Shown here: in pieces, positions 30,475 through 34,592 of the stretch | Numbering within the stretch: the first letter of the stretch is position 1 | Layout: the number at the start of each line of letters is the position of its first letter | NCBI GenBank assembly: GCA_015057955.1 | Contig: SVDE01000014.1 | Span: 1-34,592 of the forward strand | Direction: 5' to 3' | From: Lachnospiraceae bacterium | GTDB lineage: Bacteria; Bacillota; Clostridia; Lachnospirales; Lachnospiraceae | Length of the DNA stretch: 34,592 bases | Program-made: the position numbers and the translations under genes | Notes under the pieces: generated by a model | What the model saw: only the letters and a program-made list of their open reading frames with translations | Told to the model about the DNA's origin: nothing | The model's database searches: none

Positions 30475-31041
30475 ATGAAGAAGATCATTGTCGGAATAAG
30501 CGGTGCCAGCGGAGTGAGGCTCGGAGCCGAACTGCTAGCGGCATACAAAGAGATACCGGATGTGGAAACACATCTGGTTATTTCTGATAACGCTTTTGTA
30601 ACCATGAAACAGGAAACGGGCATTGACCCCGATGAGGTCCGCGCACTGGCAGACCGGAATTATGATCTTTATGACATGGCTGCTGACATATCCAGCGGAT
30701 CATTCAGGACAGACGGCATGGTGATCATACCATGCAGCATGAAAACTCTCGCCGGAGTGGCTAACGGCTTCTCGGAAAACCTTCTTCTGCGGGCAGCTGA
30801 TGTGACCATAAAGGAATGCAGAAAGCTGGTCGTTGTGCCGAGGGAAGCGCCGCTCAGCAGGATCCACTTAAGGAACCTTCTGACGCTGACAGAGTGCGGC
30901 GCTGTAGTGATACCGCCTGTCATGACTTTTTACAGCGGACAGGAGACAGCTTCTGAAATGACAGATTTCCTGATCGGAAAGATATCCGATCAGTTCGGTA
31001 TAGACTACAAAGGCTATAAACGCTGGGGCAAGGAGAGGTAA
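30475..31041 (+). CDS. ubiX: UbiX-family flavin prenyltransferase
   Basis: KKIIVGISGASGVRLGAELL; MVIIPCSMKTLAGVANGFSENLLLRAADVTIKECRKLVVVPREAPLSRIHLRN. Confidence 0.95.
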   Translation: MKKIIVGISGASGVRLGAELLAAYKEIPDVETHLVISDNAFVTMKQETGIDPDEVRALADRNYDLYDMAADISSGSFRTDGMVIIPCSMKTLAGVANGFSENLLLRAADVTIKECRKLVVVPREAPLSRIHLRNLLTLTECGAVVIPPVMTFYSGQETASEMTDFLIGKISDQFGIDYKGYKRWGKER

Positions 31042-31045
31042 GAGC

Positions 31046-32347
31046 GTGGGACTGATCACCAGGATAATATCAAATGAACCCATTAACGGAACGATCAAAG
31101 TCCCGCAGGCTGGATCGATCCTTCACAGATACATGATCTGCAGTGCCCTTTCCGGACAGGATCCCGAATTTATATGTACAAATGATTCAAAAGACATACG
31201 GGTGACAAGAAACTGCCTTGGAGTACTGGGACTCGGAGAAACATCAATTTCCGATGAGAATTTCGTGTACAGACTTGAATGTGGGGAAAGCGACACCACG
31301 TATAAGTTCATGCTTCCTATAGCAGGTGCTTTCGGAAAGACATGCATCTACGCTCTGAGGGGTAACCTGGTTTTTACATCCATGGACCAGTTTTACCGCG
31401 TTCTAAGGACTCACGGGATCAAAAGGGATGAGATCAGACCCGATCTCGTAAAAGTTACGGGACAGCTTACCGCCGGGACATACATTTTCCCGGGAGTATC
31501 GGACGGACAGGCCCTTTCCGGACTTTTGATGGCCCTTCCGCTCCTTAAGGAAAAGAGCGCTGTCATGGTGGAGAAGAAGCCCCAGTCAGAAATGTATGTT
31601 GACATGACGATCAGCATGATGCGCAGAGCCGGTATCAGCATTGAGGTGCTGAAAGACCAGAACGGACTTGCCAGGGTTTACAGGATACCCGGCGGACAGC
31701 GATATGACATGAAAGAAGTTCCGGCAATAGAAGGAGACTGGGAACTGGCAGCTTACTGGCTGACCGGAGCAGCAGTGAGCAACGGAACCGTCACATGTAC
31801 TGACCTGAATACCGCATCGCTGCAGGGAGACAGGCGTATTCTCAGGATCCTTGAACTTTTTGGAGCGAAAACCGAAGAGAAGAAGCACGAGCGCGCTGAT
31901 GCCTGGGAGGAAGGAGAACCGGTATTCTGGTCTGACATAACAGTAAAAGGCGGAAACCTTAAGGGAACGAACATTGACGCTTCCGACATACCTGACCTGC
32001 TGGCACATGTTGTGCTGCTGGCCAGCGCGGCAGAAGGAGTGAGCATAATCAAAAACCCCGTCAGCATAGGAATGGATGCAGACCGGGTCAGGGCACTTAC
32101 ATCAGTGATGACTGAACTCGGAGCCCAGATAACAGAGGTTCCGGACGGATTGCTGATCGACGGCAGCGGCGGGAAACAGCTTTTCGGAGGAAGAGTAGGG
32201 ACGCACCATGATTACAGGCTCGCCATGATGGGGACACTTGCTGCGGGCATGTGCCGGAAAGGGGTGATCCTGGAACAGGCAGATGCCGTGGAGCGGACGT
32301 ATCCGCAATTCTTCGAAGAACTTGAAAGGTTAAAGCAGAATAGATGA
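31046..32347 (+). CDS. EPSP synthase-family protein (AroA-like), divergent active site
   Basis: GTG start; fold-level matches GTIKVPQAGSILHR, GESDTTYKFMLP, SGLLMALPLL, EGDWELAAYWLTGAA, IPDLLAHVVLLA, DADRVRALTSVMTELGA, HHDYRLAMMG, ERTYPQFFEEL; several canonical catalytic residues are absent. Confidence 0.85.
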   Translation: MGLITRIISNEPINGTIKVPQAGSILHRYMICSALSGQDPEFICTNDSKDIRVTRNCLGVLGLGETSISDENFVYRLECGESDTTYKFMLPIAGAFGKTCIYALRGNLVFTSMDQFYRVLRTHGIKRDEIRPDLVKVTGQLTAGTYIFPGVSDGQALSGLLMALPLLKEKSAVMVEKKPQSEMYVDMTISMMRRAGISIEVLKDQNGLARVYRIPGGQRYDMKEVPAIEGDWELAAYWLTGAAVSNGTVTCTDLNTASLQGDRRILRILELFGAKTEEKKHERADAWEEGEPVFWSDITVKGGNLKGTNIDASDIPDLLAHVVLLASAAEGVSIIKNPVSIGMDADRVRALTSVMTELGAQITEVPDGLLIDGSGGKQLFGGRVGTHHDYRLAMMGTLAAGMCRKGVILEQADAVERTYPQFFEELERLKQNR

Positions 32348-32364: not shown

Positions 32365-32757
32365 TCATTTTCTCGCCATTATCGCACCTATGATAAAGAA
32401 AAAGATCTGGGGGATCAGAATGCCGCATACCGCAAGGATGATAATGTGGCTCACCAGGATCCCGTTGGCAGCTGAGATTATCAGCGAAGCTACGGCCAGA
32501 AATACTCCGACCTGCACGAACGGCCTGACACGCACCACACGGCGCGGTATGTTCCTGGTCAGGGCAAGAAGACCGCATACTATGTAAATAAGCGCATATA
32601 TAAACATAAGGACATCTGCTGCGAGCATCATCTTATGGGAATTCGCAACAGCTCCGAGACGGGATCTGGTCACGAAAAAGATCATTGCGCCGCATACAAT
32701 TCCTGAGATCAGCAGAAAGATGCTGAATATATTCTTTAAAGTGCTCCTAAACATCAT
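32365..32757 (-). CDS. Uncharacterised small membrane protein (about four TM helices)
   Basis: 130 aa; hydrophobic helices IFSIFLLISGIVCGAMIFFV, LAADVLMFIYALIYIVCGLLAL, VGVFLAVASLIISAANGILV, IIILAVCGILIPQIFFFIIGAI. Confidence 0.75.
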   Translation of the reverse strand: MMFRSTLKNIFSIFLLISGIVCGAMIFFVTRSRLGAVANSHKMMLAADVLMFIYALIYIVCGLLALTRNIPRRVVRVRPFVQVGVFLAVASLIISAANGILVSHIIILAVCGILIPQIFFFIIGAIMARK

Positions 32758-32880: not shown

Positions 32881-34257
32881 ATGAGTAACAAAAGCGTAAA
32901 TCCATTTTCAGAGAACACACCGGAAATAGAAGAACTTGCAAGGATCTGCAGGGAAAACGATGTCATAGATCCTTCTCTCTATTACAGGTACAATGTCAAG
33001 AGGGGACTTCGTGACGAGAACGGAAAAGGTGTCCTCACGGGACTTACCGAAATAGCAGAAGTTAAGTCTTACACCATTGATGACGATGAGATGGTGCCAT
33101 GTCCCGGAAAACTCTATTACAGAGGTTATAATATAGAGGATCTCGTAAAAGGCTTTTCAAAGGAAAAACGGTTCGGTTTTGAAGAGACTACATATCTTCT
33201 GATGTTCGGAAAGCTCCCCAACAAGGATGAGCTTAAGACTTTTGAGGAAACAGTTGAGTCATACAGACAGCTTCCTACGAACTTCGTGAGGGACATCATC
33301 ATGAAAGCGCCGAGCAAGGACATGATGAACACTCTCATGAGGAGCGTGCTCACGCTCTATGCATATGATGACAATCCTGACAGCACAGATGTAGTTAACG
33401 TACTCAGGCAGTGCCTTGCGCTCTATGCAGTCATGCCTATGCTTGCCGTATACGGCTATCAGGCATTCGAGCATTACAAGGAAGGACAGTCACTGTTCAT
33501 CCATCAGCCAAAGAGCGGACTTTCAACCGCTGAGACGATACTCCATCTGCTCCGTCCGGACAGCTCATATACAAAAACAGAAGCCAGGATCCTGGATCTG
33601 TGCCTGGTACTTCATGCTGATCACGGCGGCGGAAACAACTCCGCATTCACTACCAGGGTAGTAACATCTACGATGACGGACACTTATTCCACAACGGCTG
33701 CAGCTCTCGCTTCCCTTAAAGGCCCCCGCCACGGCGGCGCAAACATCAAGGTTGATGACATGATGGCGTTTCTCAAGTCGAAAGTCAGACACTGGGATGA
33801 TGAAAATGAGATCAGGAAGCAGCTCGAGAGGATAATCTCAGGCAAATCATTTGACAAGAGCGGCCTCATTTACGGCATGGGACATGCAGTATATACAATA
33901 TCTGACCCGAGGGCGGTCATACTCAGCCAGTTCGTTGAAAAACTTGCTGCGGAAAAAGGATGTCTCGAGGAATATGAATTTTATAAGAGAGTCGAGCAGA
34001 TCGGTACTGATGTCATCGCAACAAAGAAGAAGATGAACAGGGCAAACATATGCGCAAATGTCGACTTCTACTCAGGATTTGTATACAGGTTGCTCGGACT
34101 TCCCCACGAGCTCTTCACACCGATATTCGCCATAGCCAGGACAGCAGGCTGGGGAGCACACAGACTTGAAGAGATCGCTACAGGCAGCAAGATCATCAGA
34201 CCCGCATACAAGAACGTGGTAAGACATGCGGCATATGTACCCATCAAGAAGAGATAA
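32881..34257 (+). CDS. gltA: Citrate synthase
   Basis: CPGKLYYRGYNIEDLVKGF; LHADHGGGNNSAFTTRVVTST; LKGPRHGGAN; GMGHAVYTISDPRAV. Confidence 0.95.
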   Translation: MSNKSVNPFSENTPEIEELARICRENDVIDPSLYYRYNVKRGLRDENGKGVLTGLTEIAEVKSYTIDDDEMVPCPGKLYYRGYNIEDLVKGFSKEKRFGFEETTYLLMFGKLPNKDELKTFEETVESYRQLPTNFVRDIIMKAPSKDMMNTLMRSVLTLYAYDDNPDSTDVVNVLRQCLALYAVMPMLAVYGYQAFEHYKEGQSLFIHQPKSGLSTAETILHLLRPDSSYTKTEARILDLCLVLHADHGGGNNSAFTTRVVTSTMTDTYSTTAAALASLKGPRHGGANIKVDDMMAFLKSKVRHWDDENEIRKQLERIISGKSFDKSGLIYGMGHAVYTISDPRAVILSQFVEKLAAEKGCLEEYEFYKRVEQIGTDVIATKKKMNRANICANVDFYSGFVYRLLGLPHELFTPIFAIARTAGWGAHRLEEIATGSKIIRPAYKNVVRHAAYVPIKKR

Positions 34258-34592
34258 ATGGATCTTTTTGAATATGCACACAACAATAAATTAAAGCAGG
34301 AGGCCCCTCTGGCATACCGGATCAGGCCGCGTACGCTGGACGAGATCAAAGGCCAGAAACACATACTGGCTGAAGGAAGCCAGCTGTACAGGTCCATTCA
34401 GGCGGACAGGCTTTCTTCTGTCATATTTTTCGGACCGTCGGGAACGGGCAAGACGACACTTGCGCGGGTGATAGCAAATACGACATCAGCCGAATTCAAG
34501 CAGCTGAACGCGACAGTTGCCGGCAAAAAGGACATGGTCGAAGTCGTCGAGAATGCCAAGATGATCTCCGGCGCATACGGGCGCAAGACCAT
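34258..34592 (+). CDS. rarA: Replication-associated recombination protein RarA (MgsA) AAA+ ATPase, truncated by window edge
   Basis: PLAYRIRPRTLDEIKGQKHILAEGS; IFFGPSGTGKTTLARVIANTTSAEFKQLNAT (Walker A); ATG directly follows the gltA stop. Confidence 0.9.
   Translation, partial: MDLFEYAHNNKLKQEAPLAYRIRPRTLDEIKGQKHILAEGSQLYRSIQADRLSSVIFFGPSGTGKTTLARVIANTTSAEFKQLNATVAGKKDMVEVVENAKMISGAYGRKT

Follow-up and report, generated by a model that had tools for sequence, protein, structure and literature searches.

EPSP synthase (AroA), the target of glyphosate, is a textbook enzyme in which the fold and the catalytic residues are taken to go together, and NikO and PolA are placed in the same family. 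The latter two form 3'-enolpyruvyl-UMP from PEP and UMP in the polyoxin and nikkomycin pathways (PMC5365060). In EPSP synthase, R124 and D313 are catalytic and their equivalents are essential in M. smegmatis, where R134 is the counterpart of R124 (PMC8694188); that article quotes the E. coli R124A and D313E variants as 5,000-fold and 20,000-fold less active. Shikimate-enzyme domains, thought to be catalytically inactive, serve as regulators in the fungal repressors QutR, GaaX and TanX (PMC10512348), although these are kinase, dehydroquinase and dehydrogenase domains, not an EPSP synthase domain. In trypanosomatids, the deoxyhypusine synthase and AdoMetDC prozymes, themselves catalytically dead, activate a paralogue that is still active (PMC3663545, PMC5201418). 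No paper treating an EPSP synthase and a pseudoenzyme together was found in the open literature, and a broader search of it returned nothing relevant.

The gene compared here with these systems lies in a 34,592-nucleotide stretch of Lachnospiraceae DNA (hereafter, the window), at positions 31046-32347 of the plus strand, and encodes 433 amino acids from a GTG start. A profile search matched residues 11-426 of its product to PF00275 (181.6 bits), phmmer matched it over the full length to E. coli AroA in the PDB, and the AlphaFold model, built from six sequences (pLDDT 86.6, pTM 0.86), had E. coli EPSPS as its best solved-structure match (TM 0.81). By these three lines of evidence the EPSP synthase fold spans the whole length of the protein, in agreement with the preliminary description, which had regarded the fold as kept. 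The protein scored 213.5 bits against the TIGR01356 aroA model, below the cut-off of 287.25; this shortfall is weak on its own because full-length copies of a second AroA type in the genus (type B, see below) also fall under the cut-off, with 276.6 bits in genome G009 and 277.2 bits in G011. A MurA identity was rejected (42.8 bits against the 392.7-bit cut-off of the murA model).

The active-site motifs were located in a MAFFT alignment of the window protein with E. coli MG1655 AroA and 15 or more relatives, and all are given on the plus strand. The equivalent of PGSKSVSNR is PQAGSILHR (31103-31129; K22G, with S23 and R27 kept), that of NAGTAMR is ESDTTYK (31286-31306; G96D, R100K), the ERP loop is GNLVFTSMDQF (31361-31393; R124T and P125S, the latter common to all eroded copies described below), and that of the SSQ motif is SDGQALSG (31499-31522; S169D and S170G, with Q171 kept). 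S197 and Y200 are kept in QSEMYVD (31583-31603) and D313 in ASDIPDL (31979-31999). The N-x-R-x-KExDR equivalent, NPVSIGMDADR (32054-32086), has N336S, a one-residue deletion at K340, E341D and a kept R344, followed by HHDYRLAM (32204-32227; H385Y, R386 kept) and ERTYPQFF (32291-32314; K411R). Thus, among the PEP-binding positions K22, R124 and K411 have become G, T and R and only R344 and R386 are kept, and among the catalytic positions D313 is kept, E341 is D and K340 is deleted. In comparison with AroA, the window protein has the same fold, length and motif order and shares R27, Q171, S197, Y200, D313, R344 and R386, but K22, G96, R124, S169/S170, N336 and K340 are missing, E341D, H385Y and K411R are present, and the family score is below the cut-off.

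The preliminary description had read the same table by eye, and the MAFFT alignment reproduced K22G, G96D, R100K, R124T, S169D/S170G, E341D, H385Y (implied there by HDYRLAM), K411R and the seven kept residues. The loss of K340 also stands, but as a one-residue deletion and not as the clean substitution by M proposed there; phmmer placed the deletion in the same KExDR motif. The idea that the shikimate half is kept holds only in part, because S169D, S170G, N336S and the K340 loss affect the S3P side. No shift of gaps restored K22, R124 or K340, and the gap-light matches to the related genome G006 gave G, T and a deletion at these positions.

The pocket positions are kept in 108 intact AroA relatives. 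Comparable erosion was not detected outside the genus among the best 80 GTDB AroA loci, nor in 25 further loci from 397 genomes of the family, and among about 80 named AroA loci such losses occurred only in the genus's own copies (one of them the G002 copy, listed as L105). The residue losses of the window protein are thus far from chance. Because K22, R124 and K340 are gone together, EPSP synthesis by this protein would be very unlikely, which upholds the earlier view that normal PEP chemistry is unlikely.

To place the gene within its genus, a small one of gut bacteria, we used 14 genomes (the window genome is G000), all of them draft assemblies of many contigs (MAGs); three of the relatives are MAGs of uncultured Lachnospiraceae, recovered from horse faeces and sheep duodenum. 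Two types of AroA were found. Type A occurs with rarA, citrate synthase and a small hydrophobic protein in G000, G002-G006 and G008, except that citrate synthase is not next to it in G006 and that the G002 contig stops at the type A gene. G001, G007, G012 and G013 have as their sole AroA a sister form linked to aroB-aroC (A'), and type B, the operon copy, occurs in G000, G002-G005, G009 and G011. In G006 and G008 (assemblies 87-90% complete) no AroA other than type A was found; both have dispersed aroB, aroC, aroE and an aroDK-like fusion. The type A gene of G006 is syntenic with the window gene and encodes a complete pocket, and the type A proteins of G004 and G008 differ from this only by G96A. 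The window gene is the older, rarA/citrate-synthase-linked AroA of the genus. The G96A change of G004 (L038, 3005-4360) and G008 (L040, 9524-10879), both horse-faeces MAGs, was also seen in Lancefieldella rimae AroA (L136); according to the title of PDB entry 1mi4, alanine at this position is the substitution of a glyphosate-insensitive EPSP synthase.

The synteny markers follow the window gene: a small hydrophobic protein (cluster c6; 32365-32757, minus strand), whose homologue adjoins type A in G006, a citrate-synthase-like gene (cluster c5; 32881-34257, plus strand), which adjoins type A also in G003, G004, G005 and G008, and a RarA-like AAA ATPase (cluster c3; 34258-34590, plus strand) cut by the window end, the latter two families being named from sequence. 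Upstream, with a gap of 4 nt, is a UbiX-family flavin prenyltransferase gene (30475-31041, plus strand), whose end is overlapped by a Shine-Dalgarno-like AAGGAGAGG (31030-31038, plus strand) located 7 nt before the GTG. This ubiX gene, whose best NCBIfam match is VdcB (under its cut-off), is placed between lysA and the type A gene and was not found in the 13 other genomes of the genus, so the adjacency is local and a functional tie between the two genes was rejected. The window genome also has three UbiD-family decarboxylases (contigs C61, C160 and C232).

Four PF00275 matches were detected in the window genome, namely the window gene, a MurA-like copy on contig C70 and two halves of one type B AroA at contig ends, the N-terminal half on C252 and the C-terminal half on C174. 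The joined halves hold all 21 pocket residues, which bears out the earlier suggestion of a paralogue; the second, canonical aroA for which a check had been proposed there is spread across two contig ends. The operon order is pheA (chorismate-mutase/prephenate-dehydratase-like), aroB, aroC, aroEK and aroA on C252, continuing with aroA and aroF (DAHP synthase) on C174. The two ends have in common only a 29-base, 93% identical stretch, with no exact overlap, and we infer the join from gene order; G009, G011, G005 and G002 show the same order without interruption, whether or not aroE and aroK are fused, and G004 shows it slightly rearranged. The tetranucleotide correlation of both contigs with the window (0.82-0.89) does not suggest that they originate from contamination, although such an origin is still conceivable.

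Eroded type A genes were also found in G002, G003 and G005, which carry the operon copy as well and whose residue losses differ from those of the window. G002 and G005 have S23D, G96R, R100K, R124K, S170P, S197H, D313S and K340I, and G003 has S23D, G96R, R100N, R124A, S197Y, D313A, K340T and E341A. In the tree, the type A clade is supported at 100/99, the window branch measures 1.32 compared with 0.30 for its sister G006, and a single origin of the four eroded copies was rejected when they were constrained to one clade (p-AU 0.00027). The phylogeny indicates that the type A active site was lost at least twice, in genomes also carrying type B. Type B is present in 4/4 genomes with eroded copies and in 1/7 (G004) of those with intact or G96A-only A or A', a count that ignores phylogeny. 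In both eroded lineages R124 and K340 are lost and a charged residue is gained at G96, and R27, Q171, R344 and R386 are kept in all eroded copies. However, the overlap of kept residues between the two lineages is no more than chance (4 observed, 3.6 expected) and thus indicates no shared new active site; a common remodelled pocket was rejected on this basis.

Selection on the eroded gene was most evident in the lineage with three orthologues. The G002/G005 pair has dN 0.010, dS 0.37 and omega 0.026, and both have omega 0.09-0.11 against G003; these values resemble those of neighbouring genes, and in the G002/G005 pair the eroded gene is held more tightly than type B (0.175). A neutral nonsynonymous share was rejected at 1e-47 to 1e-60 from the synonymous excess. 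Between G002 and G003, only 10/21 pocket positions are identical compared with 327/415 elsewhere (p=0.002), whereas control pairs of intact copies are identical at 21/21 pocket positions (19/21 for G006/G004). All of the 20 non-pocket invariants are kept in the three genomes. A shift of constraint at the N terminus between G002 and G003 was too weak to be used as evidence (p=0.02). The combination of a fast-changing pocket with a selected remainder is what a protein maintained for features outside its pocket would show, and it speaks for a retained pseudoenzyme, against random decay and against a newly conserved active site.

Taken over the genus, the window gene is probably such a retained EPSP-synthase pseudoenzyme. 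For the window copy itself, the signs of selective retention are only indirect, comprising the open frame, the confidently predicted fold, ordinary codon use (0.083, neighbours 0.047-0.175) and the retained Shine-Dalgarno-like site, set against the long branch. A rather unlikely alternative, yet the one with most in its favour, is that type A became redundant when type B arrived and is drifting, with the window open frame as a passing stage. The canonical AroA would indeed make type A redundant, the window branch is long and the two lineages lost different residues; moreover, the pocket and the remainder of the window copy are about equally diverged from G006 (43% and 45%), and a late phase of decay is therefore possible for it. 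Against drift, the eroded orthologues have omega of only 0.03-0.11, and the window copy retains 16/20 non-pocket invariants, a confident fold and 0 in-frame stops, where 7-9 were simulated under neutral drift to 45-55% identity. The preliminary description had named random decay without conservation among orthologues as a case against its reading; the altered residues are indeed not conserved, but the purifying selection on the rest of the gene in the orthologues contradicts decay.

A quite improbable reading is that the pocket was remodelled for another substrate, giving an enolpyruvyl transferase or other enzyme with a new function, as NikO and PolA act on UMP. The kept fold, the anion-binding R27, Q171, R344 and R386 of all eroded copies and the strong selection in G002, G003 and G005 would fit such a change. 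Yet it is in the pocket that the eroded orthologues resemble each other least, what the two lineages keep coincides at chance, and both lost R124 and K340 and gained charge at G96; nor do they have a common pathway neighbour, ubiX being beside the window copy only and citrate synthase elsewhere. NikO and PolA use PEP, whereas the window protein has lost the PEP contacts K22, G96 and R124, and the window showed no genes for nucleoside antibiotics. The neofunctionalised enolpyruvyl transferase named in the preliminary description is thus disfavoured, and the evidence agrees best with the other option named there, a regulatory or dead enzyme. That the protein still works as an EPSP synthase through an atypical active site is scarcely credible: it belongs to the family and keeps R27, D313, R344 and R386, but K22, R124 and K340 are lost together, R124A being the weakened E. 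coli variant and R134 the essential M. smegmatis residue (PMC8694188), and a complete canonical AroA is present in the same genome.

For the pseudoenzyme reading, the selection in the better-sampled lineage points to a new non-catalytic job. Type A stands at the rarA/citrate-synthase locus, and several species, the window species included, also carry a separate aro operon with a complete type B. In at least two operon-carrying lineages type A has lost contacts to PEP and S3P together with some of the catalytic residues, with frame and fold kept. The operon copy may have taken over the synthesis of EPSP, so that type A was no longer needed for catalysis, and type A would then have persisted in a role without catalysis, probably in protein binding or regulation. 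It is conceivable, though doubtful, that a resident AroA beside an operon AroA repeatedly turns into a regulator or scaffold of aromatic metabolism that has no pocket, and equally doubtful that the intact (G006), G96A (G004 and G008) and dead (window; G002, G003 and G005) copies form a parallel series of this kind. That the partners would be the active shikimate enzymes of the operon is a slightly less likely suggestion. As with the prozymes, a dead copy stands beside an active paralogue, but for the prozymes the partners and effects have been measured.

In this genus the fold has outlasted the catalytic residues at least two times, and one lineage or more shows demonstrable selection on it. 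Because a single syntenic locus offers active, intermediate and dead orthologues within the genus, the way in which a pseudoenzyme arises can be tested directly. A caution follows for gut metagenomes: where aroA is annotated by fold only, function and glyphosate sensitivity will be misassigned.

Several features of the operon copies were observed in passing. The type B proteins (L003/L004 and L183-L188) lack about 20-30 residues between E. coli positions ~285 and ~310 with the pocket complete, and represent a shortened EPSP synthase variant. Type B is 84% identical in amino acids between G002 and G005 (L183 and L184), compared with 98% for eroded type A; it differs far more than the type A neighbours of this pair, so the operon copy has either changed fast or been replaced. 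In the type B operon of G003, aroB (L185, 4341-5335) is split into two open frames by an in-frame TAG, either a real break or an assembly error.
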